A DNA stretch of 64,000 bases from Qaidamihabitans albus (lineage in GTDB: Bacteria > Actinomycetota > Actinomycetes > Mycobacteriales > Pseudonocardiaceae), in contig NZ_JAEHOB010000006.1 in assembly GCF_016464705.1 (NCBI RefSeq), positions 248,001 through 312,000 of the forward strand, written 5' to 3'. Every line of letters begins with the position of its first letter. Position 1 is the stretch's first letter. Of the stretch, positions 27,855 to 57,539 are shown piece after piece. The notes under the pieces were generated by a model. That model had not been told where the DNA came from. It saw only the letters and a list, made by a program, of their open reading frames with translations, and searched no databases. The position numbers and the translations under genes were made by a program.

Positions 27855-27863
27855 GAGGAGCTC

Positions 27864-29360: not shown

Positions 29361-29367
29361 GTGGTCC

Positions 29368-41612: not shown

Positions 41613-42490
41613 CACACCCGCCTCGCCGTCGTCCGGCTGAACAGCCCGTGCGGTCGCACGAGCAGTACCGCCACGAGGATGCCCAGGGCCGCCAGCGTCA
41701 CCAGCTCACTGCCGAGGTAACCGCTCACATAGGACAGTGCCAGCCCGATCAGCAGGCCGCCGACCACCGCGCCCGCCGGGCTCTCCAGCCCCCCGAGCAC
41801 GGCGGCAACGAAACCGTAGACGATGACCGGATCCATGTACGCCGGGTGCACCAGGTTGCCGCCGGCGATGAGCAGGCCGGCGAGCGAGCCGACCACCGCG
41901 GCGAACGCCCAGCCGAGCGTCAGCATGTTGCCGACCCGGACGCCGAGCAGCCGGGCCACTTCCTGGTTGAAGGCCGAGGCACGCATGCGCAGCCCGATGT
42001 CGGTGAACCGGAACAGCGCCACCAGCGCCAGCATCACGACGACAACCGAGCCGATCACGAAGGCGCTGAACGGGGTGAACGCGACGGTGAACTCGCCCAC
42101 GCTGAACCCGCTCAGCCCGAAGGGGGCCGGGAAGGACTCGAAGCTGGCGCCGAAGAGGATCGCCGCCAGCGCCTGGATCGCCACGAAGAGGCCGAGTGTC
42201 ACGATCACCGCGTTGAGCTCGGGGCCGCCTTCGACGGGGCGGATCACCACCCGCTCGATCAGCGCCCCGAGCACGAGTCCGGCCAGCAGCGCGGCCGCGA
42301 AGCCGGCCCAGTAGGACTGCCCGCTCTCGATCAGCACGAGCGCGATGTAGGTGCTGAACATCGCCATGGAGCCCTGCGCGAAGTTGATGATCCTCGTGGC
42401 ACGCCAGATCAGCACGAGCGCCAGCGCGAAGGCCGCATAGATGGCGCCCTGGCTGAGCCCGCCGAGGGTGACGTTCAGGAACTGTTGCAT
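41612..42490 (-). CDS. livH: LivH-type ABC permease
   Basis: A 292-residue permease with about eight TM segments: LGGLSQGAIYAAFALALVLIWRATRIINFAQG at the N-terminus and the coupling loop FTDIGLRMRASAFNQEVARLLGVRV, both typical of LivH. It pairs with livM to form the channel. ATG 42490 lies 64 nt after the livF stop. Confidence 0.9.
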   Translation of the reverse strand: MQQFLNVTLGGLSQGAIYAAFALALVLIWRATRIINFAQGSMAMFSTYIALVLIESGQSYWAGFAAALLAGLVLGALIERVVIRPVEGGPELNAVIVTLGLFVAIQALAAILFGASFESFPAPFGLSGFSVGEFTVAFTPFSAFVIGSVVVVMLALVALFRFTDIGLRMRASAFNQEVARLLGVRVGNMLTLGWAFAAVVGSLAGLLIAGGNLVHPAYMDPVIVYGFVAAVLGGLESPAGAVVGGLLIGLALSYVSGYLGSELVTLAALGILVAVLLVRPHGLFSRTTARRV

Positions 42491-42554
42491 CGTCTTGCTT
42501 GTCCTCCTTGGATGAACCGCGCAGAGAGAGCTGTCCTTCGCGGGACCGCGAGCG

Positions 42555-43269
<715 letters not shown>

Positions 43270-43277
<8 letters not shown>

Positions 43278-44103
43278 GCTCTCCTCCCCGGTCGGCCGCT
43301 TCGCCGAGATAGGCGTCGATGACGGCCGGGTCGTCCCGGACCTCGCCGGGGCTGCCTGCCGCGACGACCCGCCCGAAGTCGAGCACGGTGATCCGGTCGC
43401 AGGCCGACATCACCAGGTCCATGTGGTGGTCGACGAGAATCACCGCCATCCGTTCGGTGAGCCCGCGGACGAAGGCCCCCAGCTCCTCGATCTCGTCGTG
43501 GCCGAGGCCGCTCGCCGGCTCGTCGAGCAGCAGCAGGTCCGGCTCGGTGGCCAGCGCGCGGGCCAGCGCCACCCGCTTCTGCACCGGATACGGCAGGCTG
43601 CCGGGGTAGGCAGCGGCGTAGCCGGCCACCCCGGCTTCGCTCATCGCGTGCCACGCCCGCTCCCGCAGCCGCCGCTCGTCCGCGGTCGACCGGGGCAGCG
43701 CGAACAGGCCGGACAGGAAGCCGGAACGGTGGAACCGGTCGGCACCGACCATCACGTTCTCCACGACGGTCAGGCCCCGGAACAGTCCGAGCCCCTGCAA
43801 CGTCCGGGCGATGCCCATGCCCGCGAGCCGGTGCGGGCGCAGGTCGCCGATCTCGCGGCCCCGCCAGCTCAGAGTTCCCGCATCGGGCCGCACGAAGCCG
43901 CAGCAGACGTTGAACAGGGTGGTCTTGCCCGCACCGTTGGGACCGATGACCCCGTGCACCTCACGGGGCAGCGCGGCGAGCGAGACGTCGTCGAGCGCCG
44001 TGAGGCCGCCGAACCGGACCGTGACGCCGGTGGCCGCGAAGAGCGGCGCCGGATCGGTTCGCGTGCCCAGATAGCGCGTCTCGGATACTCCCGGCGACGT
44101 CAC
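43270..44103 (-). CDS. livG: LivG-type ABC ATPase
   Basis: A 277-residue ATPase with Walker A IGPNGAGKTT, LivG-type GIARTLQGLGLFRGLTVVENVMVG, a degenerate signature (SLPYPVQKRVALARAL in place of LSGGQQR), Walker B LLLLDEPASGL and switch VDHHMDLV. The signature change is unusual but within a LivG-like frame. GTG 44103 follows GGGAGG at 8 nt. First gene of the Liv operon, divergent from a PucR regulator. Confidence 0.85.
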
Positions 44104-44185
44104 AGCCGCGCCTCCCGACGTTGGGTGGATGGAATGCCGCGTGTCGTCCGACACAGCGGAGGTCCCTAAGACTGATGCGCGGCGC

Positions 44186-44251
44186 CCAATCCGGGCCATA
44201 GGCGCCGCGCCCAAAGATGACCCGGATTTATGGGCTCCGCGCCCGGATTGG
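44186..44251. promoter_or_regulatory. Inverted repeat in the livG/PucR divergent promoter
   Basis: CCAATCCGGGC (44186-44196) and GCCCGGATTGG (44241-44251) are perfect 11-bp inverted arms 44 nt apart, with a further half site CCCGGATTT at 44221. The region lies between livG (minus) and the PucR-type gene (plus), so it may be the operator by which that regulator controls the transporter. Confidence 0.5.
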
Positions 44252-44288
44252 CTGGACGCGATGCAGCGCTCCGTGCAATTGTCTGCCC

Positions 44289-45509
44289 ATGAGATCGACG
44301 GCGGACGACTCGGCGACCGCCGAGTCCTCCGGACCTGCCAAGGACGCGCTGCACATTCTCAGCCGCGTCCTGCTGGACAACCTGGAGAGCCTCGCGGACC
44401 GGCTGACGCTCATGGTGCTCCAGTGCGAGCCCGCCTACGCCCAGCTCGGTGTGTCCGCGCCCGACGAGCTGCGGGAGAACCTGCGCGGCAACATCGAGCG
44501 AGGCATCCAGTCTCTTGGCGCGAACGTGCCCGATGGCGCGGATCCGCAGGACACGTCGATAGAGACCGGCCGGGTCCGGGCGCGTCAGGGCGTGCCGCTC
44601 GAAGCGGTGCTGCGGGCCTACCGGCTCGGCGGGCGGGTGATCTGGGAGGGGCTGCTGGCCACCTCGCGCGAGCGTTTCGACGGCCGCTACGACCATGCTC
44701 TGCTCGACGCGGCGGCATACGTGTGGCGGGTGATCGACTCGAGTTCCTCCGCGCTCGTCGACGCCTACCGGCTGGAGGAGTCCCGGCTGCGCAGCCAGGA
44801 GCTGAGCAGGCGGCATGCGTTCCTCAACGCGCTGCTGGAAGGGCGTGGCGGCGACCCCGCGCTGGCCGCGGACGCGGCGGCGGCGCTCGGGCTGCCCACC
44901 GACACGCCGATGCTCGTCGTCGTGGCCCCGGTCGACTCACCCCGCGACGACCCGCTGCGCTCGCCCCGGGACGTGCTCGCCACGCAGGGCGTCGTGTCGT
45001 CGTGGCATGTCCGCCCGGCGGACATCGTCGGGCTGGTCGCACTGGGCGAGCGCTCCCCCGCCGCCGTACTCGACGCCCTGGAGCCCGCGGTCGCGGGCCG
45101 GGTCGGCGCCTCGCCGGTGATCCACTCGCTCGCCGAGGTCGGCGACGCCTACACGCTGGCGCACACCGCCGCGCGCACGCTGAGCGAGTTCGGCGTCGCG
45201 ATGCTCGACGACCGGCTGCCGGAGGCACTGCTTGTCGGCAGCCCGCAGCTCATGCCGCGGCTGCAGGAGGCCGCCTTCCGCGACCTGCTGCGGCTTCCCG
45301 CGCAGGAGCGCGACACCATGCTGGAGACGCTCGAGGCGATGATCGAGAGTGGCGGCTCGCCCACCCACGCCGCGCAGCGCCTGTACTGCCACCGGAACAC
45401 GGTCATCTACCGGCTGCAGCGGATCGAGTCGGTGACCGGCCGCAAGGTCGCCGAGCCCCGGGACCGGCTGCTGCTCACCCTCGGCCTGATGGCGCACAAG
45501 CAGCGCTGA
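44289..45509 (+). CDS. PucR/CdaR-type transcriptional regulator (regulator 1)
   Basis: A 406-residue protein. An N-terminal helical domain (RILSRVLLDNLESLADRLTLMVL-like, with IERGIQSLGANVPD) is followed by a GGDEF-like central part and a C-terminal PucR helix-turn-helix: GSPTHAAQRLYCHRNTVIYRLQRIE. Such regulators often activate nitrogen-compound catabolism. ATG 44289 has no strong RBS. It is divergent from the Liv operon and directly upstream of the diiron-oxidase operon, so it may control either. Confidence 0.85.
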   Translation: MRSTADDSATAESSGPAKDALHILSRVLLDNLESLADRLTLMVLQCEPAYAQLGVSAPDELRENLRGNIERGIQSLGANVPDGADPQDTSIETGRVRARQGVPLEAVLRAYRLGGRVIWEGLLATSRERFDGRYDHALLDAAAYVWRVIDSSSSALVDAYRLEESRLRSQELSRRHAFLNALLEGRGGDPALAADAAAALGLPTDTPMLVVVAPVDSPRDDPLRSPRDVLATQGVVSSWHVRPADIVGLVALGERSPAAVLDALEPAVAGRVGASPVIHSLAEVGDAYTLAHTAARTLSEFGVAMLDDRLPEALLVGSPQLMPRLQEAAFRDLLRLPAQERDTMLETLEAMIESGGSPTHAAQRLYCHRNTVIYRLQRIESVTGRKVAEPRDRLLLTLGLMAHKQR

Positions 45510-45521
45510 CCCACCCACAGC

Positions 45522-45560
45522 GTGCACAGGAGATCGCGGGAACTCCTGTGCACTCTGTCC
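45522..45560. promoter_or_regulatory. Palindromic operator upstream of the diiron-oxidase operon
   Basis: GTGCACAGGAG (45522-45532) and CTCCTGTGCAC (45543-45553) are perfect 11-bp arms, 79 nt before the oxidase ATG. The right arm continues into CCTGTGCACTCTGTCC (45545-45560), which recurs with one mismatch at 52506-52521. The GTGCACA-N18-TGTGCAC pattern recurs at 55716-55746 with N17. A regulator of this cluster, perhaps one of the two PucR proteins, is the likely ligand. Confidence 0.68.
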
Positions 45561-45631
45561 GTGGAGGGCGTCACCTGCACCTCCGTAGCTTCTGGTTACG
45601 GCAGCAGACCCGACGGCCAGAAGGTGATGAC

Positions 45632-46345
45632 ATGACCGAGCTTCTCCCGCAGGCGGAATTCCGCGCCGCACTCGAGGATGCGATCAAAGGACGCGAGGCG
45701 AAGAACGCCTCCTTCAGCAAGGCCTGGGCGGACGGCGATCTCCAGCGGCATCACTTCGCGCGCTGGGCGGAGAACCACTTCCACTACGTCGGCCCGTTCG
45801 CCGACTACCTCGGCTACATCTACGGCAACACGCCGGAGCAGTACACCGGCGCGAAGGACTTCCTGCTGCAGAACATGTACGAGGAGGAACTCGCCGACAT
45901 CCGGCACACCGACCTGCTGATCCGCTTCGCGGAGGCGTGCGGGACCACGCGCGAGCGGGTCGAGAACCCGGACAACATGAACGCGGTGACGCGGGGATTG
46001 CAGGCATGGTGCTACGCGACATCGATGCGCGAGCATTTCGCCGTCGCCACCGCGGCGCTCGTCGTCGGCCTCGAATCACAGGTGCCGAGCATCTACAAGA
46101 AGCAGATCATCCCGCTGCGCGGCGTGTACGGCTTCACCGAGGACGAGATCGAGTTCTTCGACCTGCACATCACCTCGGACGAGGTGCACGGCGAGCGCGG
46201 CTTCCAGATCGTGCTCGACCACGCCGACACACCCGAACTCCAGCAACGCTGCCTGAAGTTCGTCCGATGGGGCGCGGAGATGCGGTTCGCCTACACCAAG
46301 GCGCTCTACGACAACTACGTCGCACCGGACCTCGTCGCCGCATGA
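45632..46345 (+). CDS. Haem-oxygenase-like diiron oxidase (TenA/PqqC/CADD-like)
   Basis: A 237-residue all-helical protein of the iron-containing redox enzyme group. All six ligands expected from the HDO family are visible: E85 and H92 (E-x6-H in EEELADIRH), E148 (GLESQ), and H179, D183, H186 (H-x3-D-x2-H in HITSDEVH). Known relatives cleave, N-oxygenate or decarboxylate amino-acid-like and fatty substrates using oxygen. ATG 45632 follows AAGGTG. It is followed by two Rieske proteins, an FAD reductase and ALDH, which suggests an oxygenase with its own electron-transfer chain. The substrate is unknown. Confidence 0.82.
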   Translation: MTELLPQAEFRAALEDAIKGREAKNASFSKAWADGDLQRHHFARWAENHFHYVGPFADYLGYIYGNTPEQYTGAKDFLLQNMYEEELADIRHTDLLIRFAEACGTTRERVENPDNMNAVTRGLQAWCYATSMREHFAVATAALVVGLESQVPSIYKKQIIPLRGVYGFTEDEIEFFDLHITSDEVHGERGFQIVLDHADTPELQQRCLKFVRWGAEMRFAYTKALYDNYVAPDLVAA

Positions 46346-46416
46346 GCAGCCCGTGCGGGCCGGCCGCCACGGATGGCCGGCCCGCACCGGCTCGGATCCC
46401 CGGAGGGACCGCCACG

Positions 46417-46794
46417 ATGCAGGAGTGGGTTTACCTCGCCGACGTGAGTGAGCTCGCGCGGCGCAAGAAGAAACGAGTCGAGGCCGGTGGCCGGAGCATC
46501 GCGCTGTTCTACATCGACGGTGACGTATACGCACTGCACGACGTCTGTGTCCACAAGCAACGGTCGCTGAGCAAGGGAACCGTGCTGCAGGGCCGCATCG
46601 TCTGCCCTGGCCACCAATGGCGGTTCGATCCGGCGACCGGCGCGGCGGACGATCAGCCGCTGTGCCAGCCGACCTACGACGTGCGCGTCGAGGACGGCCG
46701 GGTCTATGTCAACCCGCTGCGGCCCCGCCGGGCCCCCGGCTCCGCGCCGGACGTACGGGGAGGGGACCGAGCATGCTCTCCGACATCGTCCTGA
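46417..46794 (+). CDS. Rieske [2Fe-2S] ferredoxin-type protein 1
   Basis: A 125-residue soluble Rieske protein. The cluster ligands are CVHKQRSLSKG (C-x-H) and CPGHQWRFD (C-x2-H), the pattern of ferredoxin components of ring and amine oxygenases. It is expected to carry electrons from the adjacent FAD reductase to the diiron oxidase. CGGAGGG lies upstream of ATG 46417. Its last 22 nt overlap the reductase gene. Confidence 0.88.
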   Translation: MQEWVYLADVSELARRKKKRVEAGGRSIALFYIDGDVYALHDVCVHKQRSLSKGTVLQGRIVCPGHQWRFDPATGAADDQPLCQPTYDVRVEDGRVYVNPLRPRRAPGSAPDVRGGDRACSPTSS

Positions 46795-47993
46795 TCGGCG
46801 CAGGCCAGTCGGCCGCCGTGGCCGCGCGAACCCTCCGCAGGCACGGCTTCGACGGCCGCATCGAGATCATCGGCGCCGAACCGGACCCGCCCTACCAGCG
46901 GCCTCCACTGTCCAAGGAGTACCTGGAGTCCGGGGATCCCGAGGGCCTTTTCCTGCTCACCGAGCCCTGGTGCGCCGAGAAGGACGTGCGGCTGAGGCTG
47001 GGCGAGCGGGTGAGCGGCATCGACCCGGCGGCCGGGCGGGTCCTGCTCGCGAGCGGCGGGTCGGTACGCGCCGACGCCGCGCTGATCGCCACCGGGGCGC
47101 GGGCCCGGACCCTGCCGGGCATCACCGGTGAGCGGGTCCACACTCTGCGCACGAAGCACGACGCCGACCGGCTGCGGGAGTACCTGCGGCCGGGTGCGCG
47201 GATCGTCGTGATCGGCGCCGGGTTCATCGGCTCGGAAGTCGCCTCGACCGCACGGGCCAAAGGTGCGGAGGTGGTCCTCCTCGACGCGCTGGAGACACCG
47301 CTGCGTCATGTGCTCGGTGCCGAGATGGGCGAGGTTTGCGCGAGCCTGCACCGGGCGAACGGCGTGGAACTGCGGCCACGCGAGACCGTGGAGTCGGTCA
47401 CGGAAAGCAGCACGGGGATCGGCGTGCTGACGTCAGGCCACCGGTGGATCGACGCCGACGCCGTGGTGGTCGGGACCGGCGTCGAACTCAACGTGGACGT
47501 CGCGACCGCGTCCGGGATCGAGGTGAACGGCGGCATCGTGGTGGACGAATGCGGCCGCACCAGCGTGCCGTCGGTGTTCGCCGCCGGAGATGCCGCCAGC
47601 CGGTACCACCCGCTCTTCGGCGAGCACATTCGCGGCGAGCACTTCGACAGCGCCAGCCGGCTCGCCACGGCGGCGGCGAACGCGATGCTCGGCAGGCACG
47701 CGGCCGCCGTCGACCCGCCCTGGTTCTGGTCGGACCAGTACGGCGTGAACCTGCAGTACACCGGCCACGCCCGCGAGTGGGACGAGCTGGTGATCCGCGG
47801 CTCGGTGGCCGAACTGGACTTCTGCGCCTTCTACCTGGTGGGCGGCGTGGTGCGGGCGGCTTTCGCCGCCGACCGGGGCGGTGACGTCATGGGCGCCAAG
47901 GAGCTCATCGCCTGCGGCCGCGCGGTGAATCCGGCCGCGCTGCGCGACGAGGACACGGACCTGCTCGAACTGACGATGGACGGGGCCCGATGA
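46773..47993 (+). CDS. FAD-dependent ferredoxin reductase
   Basis: A 406-residue pyridine-nucleotide-disulphide-type reductase. FAD motif IVLIGAGQSAAVAARTL, PYQRPPLSKEYL (oxygenase-reductase signature), NAD motif IVVIGAGFIGSEVAS, and VFAAGDAAS. No redox disulphide is present, as in ferredoxin/rubredoxin reductases of P450 and Rieske oxygenase systems. It should pass NADH electrons to one or both Rieske proteins. ATG 46773 follows GGGGAGGGG. Confidence 0.9.
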   Translation: MLSDIVLIGAGQSAAVAARTLRRHGFDGRIEIIGAEPDPPYQRPPLSKEYLESGDPEGLFLLTEPWCAEKDVRLRLGERVSGIDPAAGRVLLASGGSVRADAALIATGARARTLPGITGERVHTLRTKHDADRLREYLRPGARIVVIGAGFIGSEVASTARAKGAEVVLLDALETPLRHVLGAEMGEVCASLHRANGVELRPRETVESVTESSTGIGVLTSGHRWIDADAVVVGTGVELNVDVATASGIEVNGGIVVDECGRTSVPSVFAAGDAASRYHPLFGEHIRGEHFDSASRLATAAANAMLGRHAAAVDPPWFWSDQYGVNLQYTGHAREWDELVIRGSVAELDFCAFYLVGGVVRAAFAADRGGDVMGAKELIACGRAVNPAALRDEDTDLLELTMDGAR

Positions 47994-49435
47994 CGGCGAA
48001 CCTGATCGGCGGCGAATGGACCGGCGCCGCGAACGACCGCTGGACCGAACGGCGCAACCCCGCCGACACCAGAGAGGTCGTGGCCTCCGCGCCCGACTCG
48101 GCCGCCGAGGACGCCCGCTCGGCGGTCGGCGCCGTCGCGGCCGGCTACCACGAGTGGGCGCGGACCAGCCCGGAACGGCGGGCCGAGGTGCTGGACACCG
48201 CCGCGACGGTCCTGGAACGGGACCCGGAGAAGCTGGCGACGGAACTCGTCGCCGAGGAAGGCAAGACACTGGCCGAAGCGCTCGGCGAGGTGCGCCGCAC
48301 CCCCGCCAACCTGCGCTTCTACGCGGGCGAGGCGCTGCGGCTGACCGGCCGGACCTACCCCGCCGCCGGCGGGCTCGTCTACTCCGCACGGCAGCCGGTC
48401 GGTGTCGTGGCCGCGATCACCCCGTGGAACTTCCCGCTCAACATCCCGTCCCGCAAGCTCGGCCCGGCGCTGGCCGCCGGCAACGGCGTGGTGTTCAAAC
48501 CGAGCGAGGTGACGCCGGTACTCGCCCGGCGGCTCGTCGAGGCGCTGCTGGAGGCCGGGCTACCGGCCGGTGCGATCGCGCTCGTGCACGGCGGCGGTGA
48601 GGTCGGCGCCGCCCTGGCGGCCGACGACCGGGTCGGCGCGGTGACCTTCACCGGTTCCACCACGGTCGGCGGGCGCATCCATGCCACGGTGGGCCCGAGC
48701 CGGCGTACCCAGCTGGAGATGGGCGGTAAGAACCCGGTGGTGGTGCTGGAGGACGCCGACCTCGACCGGGCGGCCGACATCGTGGTGCGGGGCGCGTTCG
48801 GGCTCTCCGGCCAGGCCTGCACCGGCACCAGCCGGGTGATCGCCCACGACGCCGTGCACGACGAGCTGCTCGACCGGGTGGTGCGGCGCGCCGAGCGGCT
48901 GCGCGTCGGCAACGGGCTCTCCGAGGGCGTCCAGATGGGGCCGCTGGCCACGCGGGAACAGTACGACAAGGTGCGCGAGTACGTGCGGATCGGGATCGCC
49001 GAGGGCGCGCGCCTGCACACCGGTGGCGAACCACCCGAGGGCACGGACGTCCGGCACGGCCACTTCGTCCGGCCCGCGGTGTTCTCCGGTGTCACACCGG
49101 GTTCGCGGCTCGCCCAGGAGGAGGTCTTCGGGCCCGTACTCGGCTTCCTTCGCGTCGGCTCGTTCGACGAGGCGGTGCGCGTCGCCGACGGCACCTCGTA
49201 CGGCCTCTCCGCCGGCATCGTGACCCCGGACCTGGCCCGCGCGCTCGCGTTCGCGGAGCGGGTCGAGTCCGGTCTGGTGAAGGTGAACCAACCCACCACG
49301 GGGATGGCGATGAACGCCCCGTTCGGCGGCGTGAAGGACTCGAGCACGCAGACGTCGAAGGAACAGGCCGGCGAGCAGATGACCCACTTCTACACCATCG
49401 ACAAGACGGTCTACCTCACCCCCGAGGCACGGTGA
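47990..49435 (+). CDS. Aldehyde dehydrogenase of the oxidase operon
   Basis: A 481-residue ALDH with ITPWNFPLNIP, FTGSTTVGGRI, LEMGGKNPVVVLEDADL (Glu) and SGQACTGTSRV (catalytic Cys). The sequence is of the ketoglutarate-semialdehyde/benzaldehyde DH type. It overlaps the reductase stop by ATGA. In this context it probably oxidises the aldehyde left after oxidative cleavage by the diiron oxidase. Confidence 0.9.
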   Translation: MTANLIGGEWTGAANDRWTERRNPADTREVVASAPDSAAEDARSAVGAVAAGYHEWARTSPERRAEVLDTAATVLERDPEKLATELVAEEGKTLAEALGEVRRTPANLRFYAGEALRLTGRTYPAAGGLVYSARQPVGVVAAITPWNFPLNIPSRKLGPALAAGNGVVFKPSEVTPVLARRLVEALLEAGLPAGAIALVHGGGEVGAALAADDRVGAVTFTGSTTVGGRIHATVGPSRRTQLEMGGKNPVVVLEDADLDRAADIVVRGAFGLSGQACTGTSRVIAHDAVHDELLDRVVRRAERLRVGNGLSEGVQMGPLATREQYDKVREYVRIGIAEGARLHTGGEPPEGTDVRHGHFVRPAVFSGVTPGSRLAQEEVFGPVLGFLRVGSFDEAVRVADGTSYGLSAGIVTPDLARALAFAERVESGLVKVNQPTTGMAMNAPFGGVKDSSTQTSKEQAGEQMTHFYTIDKTVYLTPEAR

Positions 49436-49457
49436 ACAGGCGCTGAAGGAGAACAGC

Positions 49458-49814
49458 ATGGAGTTCGTCAGGGTGGCCCGCTCCGGCCAGGTTCCGGACG
49501 GCTACGTCCGCCGGTTCTACGCCGGGGAACTGGAGGTCGCGGTCGCGCGGTTGCGCGGAACGGCATACGCGACGTCGAACTACTGCACACACCTGGACTG
49601 CCTGCTCTCCTCGGGCAAGCTGGTCGACGAGGGCATCGGCTGCTCGTGCCACGGCAGCGTCTTCGACCTGGAGAGCGGGGAACCAGTGTGCCCGCCGGCC
49701 ACCGAGCCGATCCGCACCTACCCGGTCAAGGAGGAGGACGGCGAGATCTTCGTCGGGGTGACCGAACAGGACCTCGCCGACGGCGGCCCGCGCCGCCGCG
49801 GAGCCGTGGGGTAG
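49458..49814 (+). CDS. Rieske [2Fe-2S] ferredoxin-type protein 2
   Basis: A 118-residue Rieske protein with ligands CTHLDC (C-x-H) and CSCHGSVFD (C-x2-H), distinct from the first Rieske in the operon. AAGGAG precedes ATG 49458. Two different Rieske carriers in one operon could mean two oxygenase steps or an adaptor for another oxygenase outside the cluster. Confidence 0.88.
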   Translation: MEFVRVARSGQVPDGYVRRFYAGELEVAVARLRGTAYATSNYCTHLDCLLSSGKLVDEGIGCSCHGSVFDLESGEPVCPPATEPIRTYPVKEEDGEIFVGVTEQDLADGGPRRRGAVG

Positions 49815-49820
49815 CCGGCG

Positions 49821-51434
49821 ATGCGGCGGCATACCTGGCCGGAACCCGCTCGCGCCGCCGTGCTCGGCAGCAGACACCTCGCGGCGGCCGCCCACCCGGC
49901 GGTGAGCGCCGCCGGGCACGAGGTCCTGGCGGGCGGAGGCAACGCCGTGGACGCCACCCTGGCGATGGCCGCGCACTGCTGGCTCACGCTACCGGGCCAG
50001 TGCGGGGTCGGCGGGGACGCGTTCGCGATCGTCCGGGAACCGGACGGTTCGGTGTGGACGGTCTGCGGCAGCGGTTTCGGCCCGGACGGCGGAGACTCCC
50101 GGTTCTACCGCGAGCGGGGATTCGGCGCGGTTCCGGTGCGCGGACCGCTGTCGGTGGCCGCACCGGGCGCGGTCGGCGCGCTGGCGACGCTGCACGCCCG
50201 CGCCGCGACCCGCCCGCTGACGCGGCTGTGGCGGCCTGCGATCGATGCGGCCGTCAACGGAGTGCCGTGCACGGGCAAGACCCGGGACGACATCGTGGCG
50301 CACGAGGCGCTGCTGCGCGCCGACCCGGGCGCCGCCGCGATGTTCCTGCCGGGCGGTGCGCCACCTGCCGTCGGCTCGCGGCTCGTCTTCGGCGAGTTCG
50401 CCGGCACCCTCCGTGCTCTCGCCGAGGACCCGGCCGCGCTGTACTCGGGTGCGCTGGCACAGCGGGCGGTCGCGGCGCTGACCGCGGCCGGCGCGCCGTT
50501 CGCGGGCGGCGAGTGGGAGGCGAGCGCGGCGGCGCCGGCCGCTGCCGCGATCACGGCCGAGTACCAGGGGCTCACGGTTCACCAGACACCACCGCCCGCA
50601 CCGGGCTGGATGATGCTGCAGCAGGCGGCGATCTGCGCCGGCTCGCTCAGCGATCTGGCACCGCTGGGCGCCGAGGCGGTGCACTGGATGGCGGCCGCGG
50701 CCCGGCGCGCATTCCATGACCGCTTCGCGCACTGTGGCGCGGATTCCACGGCGTGGCGGGCCCTGCTGGAGCCGGGTGCCGTCGCCGCCGCACGGGCGGA
50801 GATCGCCGCCGGTGCGCTCGCCGCAGCGGCGGGTGTGCGCGCCGGCGGCGACACGACGTCGACGGTCGCGGTCGACGCCGACGGCCGCGCGGTGAGCTTC
50901 ATCCACTCGCTCGCCTTCACCTTCGGATCCGGGGTCACGGTGCCCGGCACCGGGATTGTGCTGAACAACCGGTTCGGCCGCGGCGCCTACCTGCTCGACG
51001 GCCATCCGAACGAGGCCCGGCCCCGCAGGCGCCCGCTGCACACCCTCAACGCGTGGATCGTCACCGACGGGGTGGGGCGGCTCCGGTTCACCGGGAACAC
51101 ACCGGGCGGCGACGGGCAGGTGCAGTGGAACACGCAGCTTCTCTCCCACCTCGCCGACCACGACCTCGATCCGCAGCAGGCCGTGTCCGCGCCGCGGTTC
51201 ACCGTCCACCCCGGCAGTGACGCCGACACGCTCGGCGCCGCACCGGAGCTGCGCTGCGAGGACCGGCTCGGCGACGAGGTGCTGCACGGCCTGCGGGCCC
51301 GCGGGCACGACGTGCGGCGGCTGGGCGGATGGGACGCAGGCGGCTCGGCGCTGGTCATCGCGGCCGACCACGAGCGCGGCTGCCTCTCCGGCGGCGCCGA
51401 TCCACGGCAGGACGGGGTGGTGCTCGGTGCCTGA
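49821..51434 (+). CDS. Gamma-glutamyltransferase-like Ntn hydrolase, probably cytosolic
   Basis: A 537-residue GGT-superfamily proenzyme. VSAAGHEVLAGGGNAVDATLAM and PGQCGVGGDAF belong to the large subunit; the self-cleaving Thr is in GGDTTSTVAVDADGRAVSFIHSL, followed by GSGVTVPGTGIVLNN and the GGDGQVQWN loop. No signal peptide is seen, unlike classical secreted GGT, so it should act in the cytosol on a gamma-glutamyl or acylated intermediate of the pathway. The start ATG 49821 lies 6 nt after the Rieske stop. Confidence 0.85.
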   Translation: MRRHTWPEPARAAVLGSRHLAAAAHPAVSAAGHEVLAGGGNAVDATLAMAAHCWLTLPGQCGVGGDAFAIVREPDGSVWTVCGSGFGPDGGDSRFYRERGFGAVPVRGPLSVAAPGAVGALATLHARAATRPLTRLWRPAIDAAVNGVPCTGKTRDDIVAHEALLRADPGAAAMFLPGGAPPAVGSRLVFGEFAGTLRALAEDPAALYSGALAQRAVAALTAAGAPFAGGEWEASAAAPAAAAITAEYQGLTVHQTPPPAPGWMMLQQAAICAGSLSDLAPLGAEAVHWMAAAARRAFHDRFAHCGADSTAWRALLEPGAVAAARAEIAAGALAAAAGVRAGGDTTSTVAVDADGRAVSFIHSLAFTFGSGVTVPGTGIVLNNRFGRGAYLLDGHPNEARPRRRPLHTLNAWIVTDGVGRLRFTGNTPGGDGQVQWNTQLLSHLADHDLDPQQAVSAPRFTVHPGSDADTLGAAPELRCEDRLGDEVLHGLRARGHDVRRLGGWDAGGSALVIAADHERGCLSGGADPRQDGVVLGA

Positions 51435-51897
51435 GCGAGCGGCTGACAACCGTGCCGTGCCCGCCGGAGATACGTCGCCGGCGGGCCCGCGGCCCCAGGG
51501 CGACTACGTGCCGGCCGTGGTGCACGGCGGGCTGGCGTTCAGCGCGGGCATGACGCCGCGGGCCGGCGGGACGCTGCGGGTGCGCGGCCGGGTCGGCGCC
51601 GAGGTCGGGGCCGCGACCGCGCGGCGGGCGGCGGCGCTGGCGGCCGCGAACGCGCTGCTCGCGGTCGCGGAGGCCGCGGGCGGGCTCGACCGGATCGCCC
51701 GATGCCTGCGGTTGACCGTCTACCTCGCGTGTTCCGACGACTTCACCGGGCACACCGCCGTGGCCGACGGCGCATCGGAGACCCTGCGGGCGTGGCTCGG
51801 CGAGCGGGGTGCGGCGGCCCGCACGGCGGTGGGCGTGCGAACCCTGCCCTCCGGCGCCCCGGTCGAGGTGGACCTCACCGCCGCCCTGACCACCTGA
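51427..51897 (+). CDS. RidA/YjgF-family protein
   Basis: A 156-residue RidA-like protein: GDYVPAVVHGGLAFSAGMTPR, AANALLAVAEAAGGLDRIARCLRLTVYLACSDDF and a C-terminal GVRTLPSGAPVEVDLTAAL, here lacking the usual Arg-x-x motif context of archetypal RidA. RidA proteins hydrolyse enamine and imine intermediates. GTG 51427 overlaps the GGT-like stop by 8 nt; a later GTG is possible. Its presence suggests amine or imine chemistry in the operon. Confidence 0.82.
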   Translation: MPERAADNRAVPAGDTSPAGPRPQGDYVPAVVHGGLAFSAGMTPRAGGTLRVRGRVGAEVGAATARRAAALAAANALLAVAEAAGGLDRIARCLRLTVYLACSDDFTGHTAVADGASETLRAWLGERGAAARTAVGVRTLPSGAPVEVDLTAALTT

Positions 51898-51901
51898 CCT
51901 C

Positions 51902-51943
51902 CCCGCGAGTCCCCCGCCCCAACCCGAGAGTTCCGCGCTCCAC
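51902..51943. repeat. 21-bp intergenic repeats, inverse orientation
   Basis: Two adjacent 21-nt units (51902-51922 and 51923-51943) begin CCCGCGAGTCCC and CCCGAGAGTTCC. They are the reverse complement type of the units at 17614-17655. They lie between the convergent ends of the RidA and HbpS/GlcG genes. Confidence 0.6.
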
Positions 51944-51957
51944 CTCCGCCGCGGCGC

Positions 51958-52410
51958 TCACCCGGCGCGCACCCCGGCCATCAGGTCGGCGAACGCGCCC
52001 AGCGCCGCCGCCCCGACCGCCTTGTCCTGCTCACCGTTGCCACCGCTGACCCCCACCGCACCGACGATCTGCCCGTCGTACTCGATCGGGAAGCCACCGA
52101 CGAAGATCGCGAACTTGCCGGGCAGCATGTGGCTGATGCCGAAAGCCTCGTTGCCCGGGAGTGCGGGGCCGTCCGGCGGCTCGTTGAACCTGTGGGTCGC
52201 CCGCTCGTGCCCGGCCGCGGTGAACGCCTTCGCCATCGCGATCTCCACGCCGGTCAGCCGCGCGCCCGGCAGCCGGTGCAGCGCGATGACGTGACCGCCG
52301 TCGTCGCAGACGCAGATCGTCTGCCTGACCCCGATCTCCTCCGCCTTGGCACGGGCCGCGGCCAGCATCGGCAAGGCGTCGTCCAGCGTGATCCGGTTGA
52401 CCGTGTGCAC
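51958..52410 (-). CDS. HbpS/GlcG-family haem-binding-like protein
   Basis: A 150-residue GlcG/HbpS protein: ITLDDALPMLAAARAKAEEIG, ICVCDDGGHVIALHRLPGA, AKAFTAAGHERATH, GGFPIEYDGQIVGAVGVSGGNGEQD. The family binds haem or corrinoid-like cofactors and often accompanies diol and amine catabolism. GTG 52410 is 8 nt from GAGGAGG. It is divergent from the second PucR regulator and convergent with RidA, so it borders the oxidase operon. Confidence 0.85.
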   Translation of the reverse strand: MHTVNRITLDDALPMLAAARAKAEEIGVRQTICVCDDGGHVIALHRLPGARLTGVEIAMAKAFTAAGHERATHRFNEPPDGPALPGNEAFGISHMLPGKFAIFVGGFPIEYDGQIVGAVGVSGGNGEQDKAVGAAALGAFADLMAGVRAG

Positions 52411-52495
52411 GGTAGTCCTCCTCGGCTGTAGTGCGATGGTGACCAATCTGCCCCTTGCGCCGAACCGCCAACAATGGTCAAGCTGCCGTAACGCG

Positions 52496-52521
52496 ACAGG
52501 GAAAACCTGTGCAGTCTGTCC
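52496..52521. promoter_or_regulatory. Operator-like repeat before PucR regulator 2
   Basis: ACAGG-GAAAA-CCTGT, continuing as CCTGTGCAGTCTGTCC (52506-52521), shares 15 of 16 bases with 45545-45560. It ends 13 nt before the PucR GTG and lies about 90-110 nt upstream of the divergent HbpS/GlcG start. It may mediate autoregulation or HbpS expression. Confidence 0.55.
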
Positions 52522-52534
52522 ATAAGGGGGCAGC

Positions 52535-54205
52535 GTGGAAGAACGGTCACCCAGCGAGCTCACCCTGTCCCGGTTGTTGCAGGAGCGGCTGTTCCGTGAC
52601 GCCGGGGTGATCGAACCGGACGCGGGCGACGACCGCGTGGTGACCTGGTGCCTGCCCTGGGAGCAGGCGGTCACCAGTGCGGCGGAGCTCGACGGCGTGC
52701 TCGTCTTCGCCCGCGAGCCGCAGCTCGACGAAGGTGAGCTGGCACGGCTGTGCCGGCGCGGGCCTGCGGCGCTGCTCGTGTCCGGCGCCGGGAGCCGCCG
52801 GTGGCCTTCCGCGGCGACCGGGACGGTGCCCGTGGTGCCCGTCGGCGAGCACACCGGCTTCCCCGAGGTCGGCCGCCTGGTGGCGGAGCTGACACTGGCC
52901 CACGAGGCGCACGTGCTCCGTTACGGCGTCACGGTGCACCGCGCACTCGCCGAGCTGCTCTACCGGGGCGCCGGCATCTCCGCGCTCTGTCACCAGATGT
53001 CCCGCCTTTCCCACTGTTCGGTGGCCATTCTGGACAGTCAGGCCCGGGTGCTCGCCTTCGTGCAGCCGCCGGCCGGTGACCTCGACCCCGACGCGCTCGC
53101 CCAGCAGCTCACGGAGGACCCGCCCGGCCTGTTCGCCACGTCGCTGGACGGCGGGCGAGGCCCCGCCGTCGGCGAGGTGAACTTCGGCGACCGGGCGCTG
53201 ACCTGTGTCGTGGGCCCGATCGTGCTCGGCGGCCGGCACGACGGCTGGGTGCTGCTCATCGAACCCGCGCTTCGCCCGCATCCGCACGACCTCGCGCAGC
53301 ACCGGGTCGTCGTCGAGCAGGCGGTGACCATCGTGGGAACCGAGATGCTGCGGGTCCGCAGCATCTCGGAGGCCGAGGAGCGGGCCAGGGGCGACTTCGT
53401 GCATGCCCTGCTGCACGGGCGGTTCGCCACCGAGAGCGATCTGGCGGCCAGGGCCGAGCACTACGACTTCCCCACCGGTTCCACCTACGGAGTGCTCGTC
53501 GCGGGCGGATTCCGGGCCGGTGGCGCCGATCCGGCGAGCACGGTGCCGAACGTGGCCAGGGAGGTCGGCAGGCTCGCACCGCAGGGCACGCAGACCCTGG
53601 CGGCCGCGGTGGGCGACGTGCTCGCGGTCATCTACCAGTTCGACCCACCACGGCGGGCCACGGCCGATGCGGCGAACCGGATCGTCGCCGACCACGCCGC
53701 CGCGCTGGAACGCGACCTCGCGCAGCGCGTGCGCAGCGGCGTGCAGGTCGCCTACGGACGGCCGGTCACCGGTGCCGTGCGCATCACCGACAGCTACCGC
53801 GAGGCGCGGATCGCGCTCGGCCTGCGCCAGCAGCTGGGGCTCGGCGACGTCTGCGGCTTCCACGACCTGCGCGTGTTCGCCACGCTCGCGGACCTGGCGG
53901 CGAGCACCGCGGGGCGGACGTTCGCCGAGGAGCTGCTGGCGCCGCTGCGCACGGGCGGCGCCGGCGGGCCGGACCTGGAGCGCGCGGTCGTGGCCTACAT
54001 CGAGTGCGGCGGCAACGTCAACGCCGCGGCCCGCAGGCTGCACGTGCACCGCAACACCATGCTCTACAAGCTCGAACGCGCCTCCCGGGCACTGCACGTG
54101 GACCTGCGCGAGGCCGAGCACCAGTTTTCCCTGTGGCTTGCCTGCAAGCTGGATCTGCTCGCCAGGACAACGGGCTCCGTGGACCGGGAGCTGCGGCCGA
54201 GCTGA
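52535..54205 (+). CDS. PucR-family transcriptional regulator (regulator 2)
   Basis: A 556-residue PucR-type regulator. The N-terminal PucR-like domain ([45 protein letters not shown]) and a central domain are followed by the C-terminal [36 protein letters not shown]. It is a different subtype from regulator 1. GTG 52535 follows GGGGGCAGC. Its position at the right end of the operon and the shared operator suggest control of the oxidase genes. Confidence 0.9.
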
Positions 54206-54215
54206 CCGCGAACGC

Positions 54216-55592
54216 TCAGACCGGTGCCGGGTCCCGGCCGGCGAAGCTGACGAGCAGACCGGCCAGTGCGAAGGCGGCGGCGCCGCCGAAGAGCACCAGC
54301 GGCGGGGCGTGCGTGTAGCTCAGGCCCACCCAGACGGTGCCCAGTGTCGCGCCGCCGAAGCGAAGCGTGTTGAACAGGCCGAGCGCCGCGCCCGCCTGTC
54401 CCGCGGCCGAGCGGGTCGCACCGGCGGCGGCGGGAGTCTGCACGAGCGCCACACCGGCGCCGATCGCCACCAGCAGGATGCACAGCACGACCAGGTCGCC
54501 GCCCTGCGCGGTCACGTATACGCCGAGCCCCAGTTCCGCGGCGACCAGCGTGCCCAGCCCGCCGCGCAGCACCCACCGCGGCCGGGTGCGCTCGCTGAGC
54601 CTGCCGACCACCGTCGCGAGCACCGCCATCGTCGCGGGCAGCGCGAACACCAGCACGCCGGCGAGCGCGGTCGGCAGCCCCAGCGCCCCCGTGACGTAGA
54701 GCGGCATCGCGACGAGGGTGGCGCCGAGGCAGAACATCTGCGCGCACGCCGCCACGCCGCTGCGCAGGAACCGCGGCTCGACCAGCAGCGCGGGCGGGAC
54801 GAACGGCTCCGCGGCCCGGCGCGAAACCAGGACGAACACGATGAGGCCGCCGACGCCGACCAGGCCGAGCGCCCCGAGCCACCACCACGGCAGGACGCCG
54901 CCCGGCGCGAGCGCGGCGGCCGCCATCAACAGCGCGATGCCGGTCGTGAACGCCACCGTGCCCGGCCAGTGCAGTCGTCTCGGCCGGGCACGCTCGGCGG
55001 GCACCAGCCACACCAGCGCCACCACGAGCAGCGCGCTGACCGGCACGAGCAGCCAGAAGATCGCCCGCCATCCCCACGGTCCCGCCACCAGCCCGCCCAG
55101 TGGCGGACCGAGCGCCTGACCGATGCCGTTGGCCGCGGCCCACGCGCCCATCGTGCGGTTGCGCCGCGCGGGCCCGTAGACGCTGGCGAGCATGCCCATC
55201 ACGCACGGCGGCGCGGCCGCGCATGCCAGGCCCTGCAGTGCCCTGGACGCCGCGAGCACCGGCAGCGACGGCGCGAGCGCCGCGCCGACCATCCCGGCCA
55301 GCAACAGCACCTGCGCGACGATCAGCGTCCGCCTGCGCCCGAAGCGGTCGCCGACCCAGCCCATCAGCGGCATCGTCGCCGCGAGCACGAGCACGAACGA
55401 GGCCACCGCAAGCACACCGGCGGACAGCGGCACACCGAGCTCCCGGCTGATGTCGCGCAACGGCACGTTGATCACGTTGTTGCTCACCGTGCCGAGCAGC
55501 GTCACCGCGAGCAGCGTGAGCAGTACCCGCCTGCCGGGTCCGGCCGTCGCGCTCGTCCGGTGCACCGCGGGCCGCGCGGTCGTCTTCGCCAC
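54216..55592 (-). CDS. MFS transporter (DHA-type exporter)
   Basis: A 458-residue MFS protein with about 14 TM segments. The loop motif GDRFGRRRTLIV after TM2 and the GPPLGGLVAG motif C of antiporters are clear. It probably exports a small molecule by proton antiport. GTG 55592 is used. It is convergent with the PucR regulator (11 nt apart) and divergent from the large permease. Confidence 0.9.
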   Translation of the reverse strand: MAKTTARPAVHRTSATAGPGRRVLLTLLAVTLLGTVSNNVINVPLRDISRELGVPLSAGVLAVASFVLVLAATMPLMGWVGDRFGRRRTLIVAQVLLLAGMVGAALAPSLPVLAASRALQGLACAAAPPCVMGMLASVYGPARRNRTMGAWAAANGIGQALGPPLGGLVAGPWGWRAIFWLLVPVSALLVVALVWLVPAERARPRRLHWPGTVAFTTGIALLMAAAALAPGGVLPWWWLGALGLVGVGGLIVFVLVSRRAAEPFVPPALLVEPRFLRSGVAACAQMFCLGATLVAMPLYVTGALGLPTALAGVLVFALPATMAVLATVVGRLSERTRPRWVLRGGLGTLVAAELGLGVYVTAQGGDLVVLCILLVAIGAGVALVQTPAAAGATRSAAGQAGAALGLFNTLRFGGATLGTVWVGLSYTHAPPLVLFGGAAAFALAGLLVSFAGRDPAPV

Positions 55593-55823: not shown

Positions 55824-57392
55824 ATGCAATTGACAGCAGCACACTGGGTGTATCTGTCAGGGGTCGTCGTCATTCTCGGTACGATGATCGCCCGCAAGAA
55901 CATCGTCGTCCCCGCTGTGGTCGCGACCTTCCTGACCGCGCTGGTGTTCTCCGGCAGCCTCGTCACCGGGATCACGTCGGTGTTCAACGCCAGCCTGGTC
56001 GCCGCCACCAACCTGTTCAACATCTTCCTGATCATCGCGCTGGTCACCGCGATGCTGCATTCGCTTCAGGTGCTCGGCGCCGACCGGAAGATGGTCGCGC
56101 CGTTCCGCCGGGTCATGCGCAACGGCCACCTGGCCTTCTGGGGCCTGGTGGTCGTCACCTACTTCATGTCCCTGTTCTTCTGGCCGACACCGGCAGTTCC
56201 GTTGATCGGCGCCGTGCTGATCCCGGTCGCGATCAGGGCCGGCCTGCGGCCCATGGCGGTCGGCATGGTGGTCGCTTGCGCCGGCCAGGGCATGGCGCTG
56301 TCCTCGGACTACGTGATGCGCGTCGCCCCCGGGCTGTCCGCACAGGCGGGCGGGCTCGACCCGAACTCGGTGGCCGACCGGGCGATGGTGCTCTCGATCG
56401 TGGTGGGCGTCGTGGCGCTGCTCGTCGGGTACGCGACCGAGTTCCGCAAGATGCGGGCACCGTCGGCACAGCTCCTCGCCGAGTGGGAGGGCCGCGGCAA
56501 GAGCCTGGACCCGGGGGCCACGCCGCCGCGGGAGCGGGAGCTGGTCGAGACCCCCGCCGGTGCGCGCACCGCCGCCCCGGCACCGGCGGCCGCCGGCGGT
56601 GGCACCGTGATCACCGGTGAGCCCGGCGAACCGGACGGGCCCCCCTGCCCCGCGGAAGATCCGCCCCAGACCCCACCGGCGACCCACCCGGCGGCGTCCA
56701 CGTTCTTCGCGTTCCTGGTCCCGCTGGCCTATCTGTCGCTGATCGGGTACATGGTCGCGGCCAAGGCCTCGGGCGGGATCCCGGACCTTGAGGCGGGCGA
56801 GGCGGCAGGGCTGGTCGGCGGCGTCGCGGCGATCATCGTGCTGTTCGCGTCGCTGGTCGGCGAGGGCCGGGGCTTCCTGGAGTCCTCGGCCACCCATGTG
56901 GTGAACGGCCTCGTGTTCGCGTTCAAGGCGATGGGCGTGGTACTGCCGATCGCGGGGTTCTTCTTCATCGGCAACGGGGAGTTCGCCTCGGAGATCCTCG
57001 GCACCGAGAACGCCGGAGACGGCATCCTCTTCGACCTCGTCGCCGCCGCGCAGCAGCACATTCCGGACAGCCCGTTCATCGCCGCCTTCGGCATCCTCCT
57101 GGTCGGCCTGGTCGCCGGCCTCGACGGATCGGGCTTCTCCGGGCTCCCGCTCACCGGCACGCTCGCCGGCGGGCTCGGTGAGAGCGCGGGCATGAGCGCG
57201 GACACGCTGGCCGCGCTCGGGCAGATGGGCAACATCTGGTCAGGCGGCGGCACGCTGGTGGCGTGGTCGTCGCTGATCGCCGTCGCCGGATTCGCCAGGG
57301 TGCCGGTGCTCGACCTCGCGCGGCGGTGCTTCCTCCCCGTCATGTGCGGTCTGGCCGCGGCGGCGGTGGTCGCCGTGGTGTTCCTCGGCTGA
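55824..57392 (+). CDS. Large multi-TM permease (ion-transporter-superfamily-like)
   Basis: A 522-residue membrane protein with about 12 TM segments and a hydrophilic loop of about 100 residues (from ATEFRKMRAPSAQLLAEWEG to PPATHPAA). FFWPTPAVPLIGAVLIPVAIRAGLRPM and GLDGSGFSGLPLTGTLAGG are notable conserved-looking re-entrant-type motifs. It resembles anion/dicarboxylate-type transporters of the IT superfamily, but the family is not certain. ATG 55824 follows GAAGGGAAA. It shares its operator with the diiron-oxidase operon, so it may be the substrate transporter. Confidence 0.72.
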   Translation: MQLTAAHWVYLSGVVVILGTMIARKNIVVPAVVATFLTALVFSGSLVTGITSVFNASLVAATNLFNIFLIIALVTAMLHSLQVLGADRKMVAPFRRVMRNGHLAFWGLVVVTYFMSLFFWPTPAVPLIGAVLIPVAIRAGLRPMAVGMVVACAGQGMALSSDYVMRVAPGLSAQAGGLDPNSVADRAMVLSIVVGVVALLVGYATEFRKMRAPSAQLLAEWEGRGKSLDPGATPPRERELVETPAGARTAAPAPAAAGGGTVITGEPGEPDGPPCPAEDPPQTPPATHPAASTFFAFLVPLAYLSLIGYMVAAKASGGIPDLEAGEAAGLVGGVAAIIVLFASLVGEGRGFLESSATHVVNGLVFAFKAMGVVLPIAGFFFIGNGEFASEILGTENAGDGILFDLVAAAQQHIPDSPFIAAFGILLVGLVAGLDGSGFSGLPLTGTLAGGLGESAGMSADTLAALGQMGNIWSGGGTLVAWSSLIAVAGFARVPVLDLARRCFLPVMCGLAAAAVVAVVFLG

Positions 57393-57421: not shown

Positions 57422-57484
57422 GTGGACACGCGTGCGTAGACGGCGGACACGCGTGCGCGAAGCGCGGACACGCGGGTTTGGCAG
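57422..57484. repeat. Three tandem 21-bp units
   Basis: The units at 57422-57442, 57443-57463 and 57464-57484 start with G(T/C)GGACACGCG and diverge toward their ends. They fill most of the 147-nt gap between the permease and the TPP enzyme. The sequence differs from the CCTGAG-type 21-bp repeats elsewhere in the window, though the period is the same. The reading frame is not coding in a recognised gene. Confidence 0.65.
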
Positions 57485-57539
57485 CCTGGGCTCCGGGAAG
57501 CCCTTCCATGGCATATCGCAGCGAGTCATGGGAGTAGTA

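Follow-up and report, generated by a model that had tools for sequence, protein, structure and literature searches.

Described systems closest to the module

The subject of this study is a gene module in a 64,000-nucleotide stretch of DNA from Qaidamihabitans albus (contig NZ_JAEHOB010000006.1 of assembly GCF_016464705.1, positions 248,001-312,000), which will be called the window and to which all coordinates refer. The module is built around a gene (45632-46345, plus strand) for a haem-oxygenase-fold diiron protein of 237 amino acids (aa), a predicted terminal oxygenase or oxidase that matches Pfam family PF14518, Haem_oxygenas_2 (1.9e-34). It will be referred to as HDO (haem-oxygenase-like diiron oxidase), and the operon that contains it probably represents an undescribed route for the breakdown of a nitrogen-containing acid. 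The closest solved relatives of HDO, by both sequence and fold, are CADD and PqqC, and CADD has its metal ligands at the same positions. The CADD and PqqC systems are not known to have redox partners.

A Rieske ferredoxin and an FAD reductase feed a non-haem iron oxygenase in the HcaC/HcaD and AndAb/AndAa chains of Rieske dioxygenases, and diiron monooxygenases of the toluene 4-monooxygenase type are likewise fed by such a pair. The module has both components next to its diiron protein. It differs from these systems, however, in that the terminal oxygenase has a haem-oxygenase fold instead of being a ferritin-like hydroxylase or a Rieske alpha subunit, and in that two Rieske proteins are present. 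The Rut (uracil) and Tgn (trigonelline) pathways share with the module an oxygenase with electron supply, a hydrolase, a Rid protein and aldehyde dehydrogenase (ALDH) steps, but their oxygenases are two-component flavin enzymes, and they contain neither an HDO nor Rieske proteins.

An HDO with its own redox partner has been described for mangotoxin, where full conversion by MboA depends on NADH and on MboB, a flavin/2Fe-2S reductase (PMC13185094). The authors of this 2026 paper consider MboAB possibly the first characterized dedicated pair of an HDO and a redox partner. By this description, MboAB is like the module in that an HDO adjoins a dedicated, NADH-dependent flavin/2Fe-2S partner, and the reductase found in the Burkholderiales variant of the module (see below) has a similar make-up. 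In contrast to the module, MboAB is biosynthetic, acts on a peptide substrate and has a one-protein partner, and Rieske proteins are not named in the text of the paper (PMC13185094). The precedent shows that an HDO can need a dedicated partner. An earlier annotation made from the DNA letters alone, the sequence-only reading, had considered a dedicated Rieske chain unusual for an HDO. The statement on MboAB agrees with this view, as does a 2026 review on HDOs, in whose main text the word "ferredoxin" does not occur. Among the matches listed in the open-licence PMC literature, there was no paper on this operon and none on a catabolic or a Rieske-fed HDO. Thus, HDO chemistry with a multicomponent Rieske-type electron supply in an apparently catabolic operon is apparently new.

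A conserved operon around HDO

On the same strand, HDO is followed by genes for a Rieske [2Fe-2S] ferredoxin-like protein, Rieske-1 (46417-46794, 125 aa; PF00355, 1.6e-19), an FAD/NAD(P)H ferredoxin reductase (FdR) of the HcaD/AndAa type (46773-47993, 406 aa; PF07992, Pyr_redox_2, and PF14759, Reductase_C), ALDH (47990-49435, 481 aa; PF00171, 9.4e-151), a second Rieske protein, Rieske-2 (49458-49814, 118 aa; PF00355, 1.4e-17), an accessory N-terminal nucleophile hydrolase of the GGT superfamily (49821-51434; PF01019, 1.3e-85) and a Rid-family protein resembling PA0814 (approximately 51427-51897, with an uncertain GTG start; PF01042/PF14588), called RidA below. Beyond this run lie genes for an HbpS/GlcG-like protein (51958-52401, minus strand, 147 aa; PF03928, 7e-35), PucR2, the probable regulator of the module (52535-54205, plus strand; PF13556 and PF17853), an MFS transporter (54216-55592, minus strand, 458 aa; PF07690, 4.8e-53) and a carrier with the fold of the ion-transporter superfamily (55824-57392, plus strand, 522 aa), which matches neither a Pfam nor an NCBIfam model. 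The six distances between neighboring genes from HDO to RidA range from -22 to 71 bases, and three of them are overlaps, which makes this run operon-like. The genes from HDO to RidA, with HbpS adjoining, had already been listed in the sequence-only reading, and all are present as placed there, HbpS being on the minus strand.

A scan of contigs with HDO yielded 258 loci, of which the best 80, all actinobacterial (HDO identity 81-92%), were analyzed. As they were picked by identity and are rich in Mycolicibacterium and Rhodococcus, these loci are not independent. The main count was made on the 60 loci with complete 10-kb flanks, the 20 loci with short flanks being excluded. Rieske-1, FdR and Rieske-2 were found in all 60, ALDH in 59, RidA and HbpS in 58 each, PucR2 in 58 (53 at an identity of at least 38%), GGT in 55, MFS in 54 and the carrier in 42; in many of the remaining loci, the position of the carrier gene is at or past the end of the flank. 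When membership was counted over all 80 loci at an identity of at least 38%, the numbers were 79 for Rieske-1, 77 for FdR, 73 for Rieske-2, 72 for ALDH, 67 each for HbpS and RidA, 66 for MFS, 63 for GGT, 60 for PucR2 and 53 for the carrier. The neighborhood search proposed with the sequence-only reading thus shows that the Rieske, reductase, ALDH, GGT and RidA genes recur with HDO (55-60 of the 60 loci). The conserved unit also reaches past the coordinates of that reading, to position 57392, and HbpS, PucR2, MFS and the carrier belong to it. HbpS is highly conserved, with a median identity of 82%, about equal to the 84% of HDO itself.

The module is found in Mycolicibacterium, Rhodococcus, Streptomyces and other soil actinobacteria, and the mycobacterial copies adjoin rplN/rplX. 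In Actinomadura, ALDH, GGT and RidA are located upstream of HDO, and in Pseudonocardia and some Streptomyces, GGT and RidA are divergent from HDO. Since gene order varies between lineages while the set persists, linkage by mere descent is less likely. The module is almost certainly one functional unit.

Two neighbors that the sequence-only reading had drawn into the system do not share this conservation. The Liv-type ABC importer (39163-44214, minus strand) and PucR1 (44217-45509, plus strand) adjoin the module, but at an identity of at least 38%, LivF was found in two of the 60 full-flank loci and the other Liv genes in none, and PucR1 was absent from all 60. Both were therefore rejected as members and are judged to lie outside the conserved unit. 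PucR1 and the Liv genes are syntenic with HDO in one relative (G083), which keeps the order, and a lineage-specific link to the module may exist.

Co-inheritance was assessed in 249 genomes of the family Pseudonocardiaceae, 12 of which contain HDO. A close homologue of Rieske-2 (identity at least 63%) is present in all 12 and in two of the 237 others, G050 and G154 (Fisher p 1e-18); one further genome without HDO, G092, has a 41% relative. An orthologue of GGT (E<=1e-60, five candidates scored per genome) is present in nine of the 12 and in none of the 237 (Fisher p 2.5e-14). These p values treat as independent genomes that are phylogenetically related. The co-occurrence of HDO with Rieske-2 and GGT is beyond chance. 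The three operons without GGT (G044, G076 and G233) still have all ten remaining genes, among them Rieske-1 and ALDH. In G154, Rieske-2 occurs without other module genes, and in G050, it is preceded, as in the module, by a reductase homologue (48%) whose frame is apparently disturbed. Both regions could be what is left of a former module.

In a sample of 396 genomes of the phylum, 27 had a match to HDO (E<=1e-8). Only two matches were close, i.e., the own genome of the window and G279, a distant actinobacterium (77%). As the next match was only 32% identical, the HDO group is sharply bounded. Its patchy spread, in 12 of 249 genomes of the family and two of 396 of the phylum (own genome included), fits an accessory pathway.

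The diiron protein

The six metal ligands named in the sequence-only reading, E85, H92, E148, H179, D183 and H186 (three His and three carboxylates), are all found at exactly these positions in HDO. Loss of ligands in close homologues had been set beforehand as a refuting outcome, as had a gene set that relatives do not conserve, and neither check refuted the idea of one system. In an alignment of 95 homologues, about 90 of which are distinct since five genomes are present twice, five ligands are invariant (95/95) and E148 is retained in 94. The single change is E148K in Geodermatophilus sabuli (L075), which may reflect decay, a sequencing error or an altered enzyme.

An AlphaFold2 model of HDO (pLDDT 84.9) adopts a haem-oxygenase-like helical fold, with PqqC (Z 24.1), CADD (23.5), UndA (21.2) and the N-oxygenase HrmI (20.9) as matches over 212-226 residues (root-mean-square deviation 2.1-2.7). 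MboA was not among the fold matches of the model, which says nothing on how close MboA is. A dinuclear iron cofactor and activation of O2 are predicted. Among proteins of solved structure, CADD and PqqC are also closest in sequence (1.9e-14 to 1.6e-9). HDO nevertheless scores below both curated cut-offs, with 88.2 bits against TIGR04305 (CADD/p-aminobenzoate synthase, cut-off 200) and 43.1 bits against TIGR02111 (PqqC, cut-off 240). Furthermore, the positions of Tyr27 and Lys152, the self-sacrificed residues of CADD, are occupied by Ser and Gln (S29 and Q158) in 95 of the 95 aligned homologues. HDO was therefore rejected both as a p-aminobenzoate synthase of the CADD type and as a PqqC.

The genome of the window encodes a second Haem_oxygenas_2 protein (G000:C12:68521-69048, L098), which matches PF14518 with 202 bits, versus 120 for the HDO studied here. 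In another genome, G073, the open frame around one HDO match (L013) contains one in-frame TGA; the named copy of that genome is L064.

A putative electron supply in two versions

Rieske-1 and Rieske-2 have the motif CxH-(16)-CxxH in common, and their median identities are 55 and 74%, respectively. With FdR, they provide a Rieske ferredoxin and an FAD reductase of the Hca/And make-up, all with scores under the equivalog cut-offs (for FdR, 325 bits against NF042949, cut-off 450). A Rieske oxygenase alpha subunit was not found among the ten proteins of the module region that were searched, nor among the 27 larger clusters of open reading frames (ORFs), i.e., those with at least six members across the 80 loci, which were judged by eye.

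A scan of 72,556 plasmid records with HDO returned six, four from Cupriavidus and two from Caballeronia (identity 67-72%). In the three of these Burkholderiales loci that were compared (HDO identity 67-71%), Rieske-1, Rieske-2, FdR, GGT and RidA were not found within 14 kb (E<=1e-4), while ALDH (46-48%), HbpS (54-61%) and the carrier (44-49%) are retained. In Cupriavidus and Caballeronia, too, HbpS adjoins HDO. Instead of the missing genes, the loci of Cupriavidus metallidurans (L095, own ORF calls) and Caballeronia (L096, deposited annotation) contain genes for a 2Fe-2S/FAD reductase, small 2Fe-2S proteins and an ornithine-cyclodeaminase (OCD)-like protein. The reductase of C. metallidurans is BenC-like, with a score below the cut-off. 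The electron chain is non-orthologously replaced in Burkholderiales. The HDO locus of G279 is intermediate. ALDH (50%) and HbpS (48%) are encoded there, and so are an OCD-like protein (34%) and a GGT relative (29%); one further ORF is ferredoxin-like (31%).

The Rieske proteins and the reductase could also serve another step or an oxygenase elsewhere, in which case HDO would be an oxidase that does not need external electrons. Such an arrangement would be consistent with the two-electron product of MboA, which forms with Fe(II) alone (PMC13185094), and with the two genomes in which Rieske-2 occurs without HDO. However, all 60 loci combine HDO with the chain, and inspection of the 27 larger ORF clusters by eye did not reveal a further recurrent oxygenase, which makes this possibility improbable. 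The strongest argument that the chain serves HDO comes from Burkholderiales, which have replaced it by a non-homologous one and have not lost it; G279 forms an exception. It is likely that HDO is served by the Rieske/FAD chain, and co-conservation leads to the prediction that a redox partner is required for HDO turnover in this module.

Predicted import, aldehyde, imine and amide steps

A structure model of the carrier (pLDDT 83.3) matches MleN (Z 26.2 over 421 residues) and, with Z 20-23 across some 400 residues, carriers of the Pho90, NaDC and INDY types. As this fold is shared with carboxylate carriers, it supports carboxylate import, and the carrier is predicted to be, probably, the importer of the pathway substrate. 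It is present in 12 of 12 family genomes with HDO and was not found in the three HDO-free family genomes tested. Across the phylum, it was found in one of 396 genomes, a weak negative with three candidates per genome scored among the matches listed.

The nearest models for ALDH are those of alpha-ketoglutaric semialdehyde and 2,5-dioxovalerate dehydrogenases, below the cut-off (514 of 750 bits for NF052305). Another ALDH subgroup may account for the matches in Pseudonocardia and some Streptomyces, whose identity is 40-44%. In the Rid protein, whose nearest solved structure is that of PA0814 (PDB 9bk9, 5e-30), the catalytic residues R132 and E147, which presumably correspond to Arg105 and Glu120 of RidA, are retained in 30 of 30 sequences. 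For the OCD-like protein, the best models are pyrroline/piperideine-2-carboxylate reductases, again below the cut-off. The imine-handling genes alternate: a locus has either RidA, with both catalytic residues, or an OCD-like protein.

The presence of a GGT-like gene had been taken to suggest gamma-glutamyl chemistry, and the match to PF01019 could indeed point to gamma-glutamyl or glutathione catabolism. The nucleophile T345, in a GDTT motif, is retained in 51 of 51 sequences. In E. coli GGT, the residues that bind the gamma-glutamyl group are Arg114, Asp433 and Ser462-Ser463. An alignment with 2e0w and column counts revealed that, in all 51 sequences, the first two positions hold Ser and His (with one Thr; S84 and H395 here), and that the last two are His/Asn-Thr in all 50 sequences with letters there (H407-T408 here). 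The protein reaches 201 bits against TIGR00066, whose cut-off is 358, and the gene is dispensable, being missing from three of the 12 family operons, which keep the other ten genes, and from five of the 60 loci. Gamma-glutamyl chemistry was therefore rejected, and a pathway of that type is very improbable. The protein is, by prediction, an amidohydrolase that has lost the gamma-glutamyl pocket.

An amidase is encoded in 13 of the 80 loci, ten of them at an identity of at least 38% to the amidase of L092 and three (L033, L074 and L075) by clustering. In ten of these 13 loci, it lies beside a second copy of the carrier gene, and in six, the stop of the carrier gene and the start of the amidase gene overlap by four bases. 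These amidase loci bear on a sharper form of the catabolic proposal set out below, in which HDO would take the place of the luciferase-like monooxygenase (LLM) flavin oxygenase of Rut/Tgn-type pathways and open an N-heterocyclic ring to an amide and an aldehyde, to be followed by the hydrolase, ALDH and Rid steps. An Arthrobacter plasmid that encodes a carrier homologue (39-42%) beside an LLM oxidoreductase, a flavin reductase, an amidase, ALDH and a Rid protein would fit such a scheme as well. However, the latter is a single locus, and the hydrolase and the amidase are missing from many HDO loci. Ring opening in this specific form is doubtful.

Proposed pathway

We propose that the carrier would import a nitrogen-bearing carboxylate. 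Electrons would pass from NADH via FdR and one or both Rieske proteins to the diiron center of HDO and keep it reduced. HDO would then activate O2 and oxidize the substrate at or next to the nitrogen; the possible products are an aldehyde and either an imine or an enamine. ALDH would oxidize the aldehyde, and RidA would dispose of the imine, a task that may fall to the OCD-like imine reductase in Cupriavidus, Caballeronia and G279. An amide form of the substrate may be opened by the GGT-superfamily hydrolase, a role that the amidase encoded with a second carrier copy may have in some lineages, and PucR2 would regulate the module. HbpS is not assigned to any of these steps. It is about as likely as not that the module serves oxygenative catabolism as set out here. 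The weakest step is the nature of the substrate, for which a nitrogen-containing carboxylate falls a little short of even chances.

Several points weigh against the proposal. The fold of the carrier does not fix its substrate. GGT is missing in five and RidA in two of the 60 full-flank loci, which means that they are not essential steps everywhere. In G279, the ORFs around HDO include no recognized reductase, and the carrier was not found in the genome (E<=1e-20). Rieske-2 without HDO in two of 237 family genomes shows that it can persist without HDO. Genes for ALDH, RidA and MFS are found in biosynthetic clusters as well, and the abstract of the 2026 review describes the HDO superfamily from the viewpoint of natural product biosynthesis.

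The last two points, together with CADD and PqqC as the nearest folds and sequences and the MFS neighbor in 54 of the 60 loci, would suit a biosynthetic operon. HDO would then make a small metabolite or cofactor, as do CADD (p-aminobenzoate), PqqC (pyrroloquinoline quinone), BesC, MboA and PolF, with ALDH and RidA tailoring or protecting it and MFS exporting it. Against this stand the loss of Tyr27 and Lys152 and the scores under the TIGR04305 and PqqC cut-offs discussed above, the recurrence of an importer-type carrier, and the 27 larger ORF clusters of the 80 loci, none of which, judged by eye, encodes a biosynthetic ligase, synthetase or transferase. A biosynthetic role is unlikely. From ALDH, the importer-type carrier, RidA and the patchy distribution, we consider the operon probably catabolic.

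More broadly, HDO and its relatives might be the first class of catabolic HDO monooxygenases, a haem-oxygenase-fold counterpart of the multicomponent diiron monooxygenases that is fed by a Rieske/FAD chain in actinomycetes and by a ferredoxin/BenC-like chain in Burkholderiales and that opens the degradation route of a nitrogen-containing, perhaps heterocyclic, carboxylate. We put this forward tentatively, as a possibility that is somewhat more likely to fail than to hold. An electron chain encoded with HDO in two non-homologous versions offers a ready system for studies on HDO reduction and multi-turnover oxygenation. Such work would moreover assign a function to the HbpS-like protein and to a carrier family without a Pfam entry, and a degradation pathway that has been missing so far may come to light in Mycolicibacterium, Rhodococcus, Streptomyces and Cupriavidus.

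Other observations

The Arthrobacter sulfonylureivorans plasmid region mentioned above (L100:11565-23642), which in addition encodes a NIPSNAP protein, looks like a separate catabolic cluster; nothing on it was among the matches listed in the open-licence PMC literature. In the two HDO-free genomes with Rieske-2 described above, the homologues (65-66%) in L147:8786-10333 and L148:9918-10253 have similar surroundings, with a shared ORF of 842 aa and an ORF that appears nuclease-like by eye; the reductase homologue with the apparently disturbed frame precedes Rieske-2 in L147. A membrane protein of approximately 259 aa, DUF1275/YoaK-like by eye, is encoded near the module in 31 of the 80 loci, e.g., at L071:3367-4146 (minus strand).

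In the window, the carrier gene is followed by genes for a three-domain thiamine pyrophosphate (TPP) enzyme (57432-59339, plus strand) and an FAD-linked oxidase of 1049 aa fused to 4Fe-4S and CCG domains (60505-63654, plus strand). A region on the minus strand (25876-31251) is possibly involved in myo-inositol catabolism; it encodes a dehydrogenase of the GFO/IDH/MocA type (25876-26985) and a TPP enzyme (29368-31251), for which the labels IolG and IolD are our guess.

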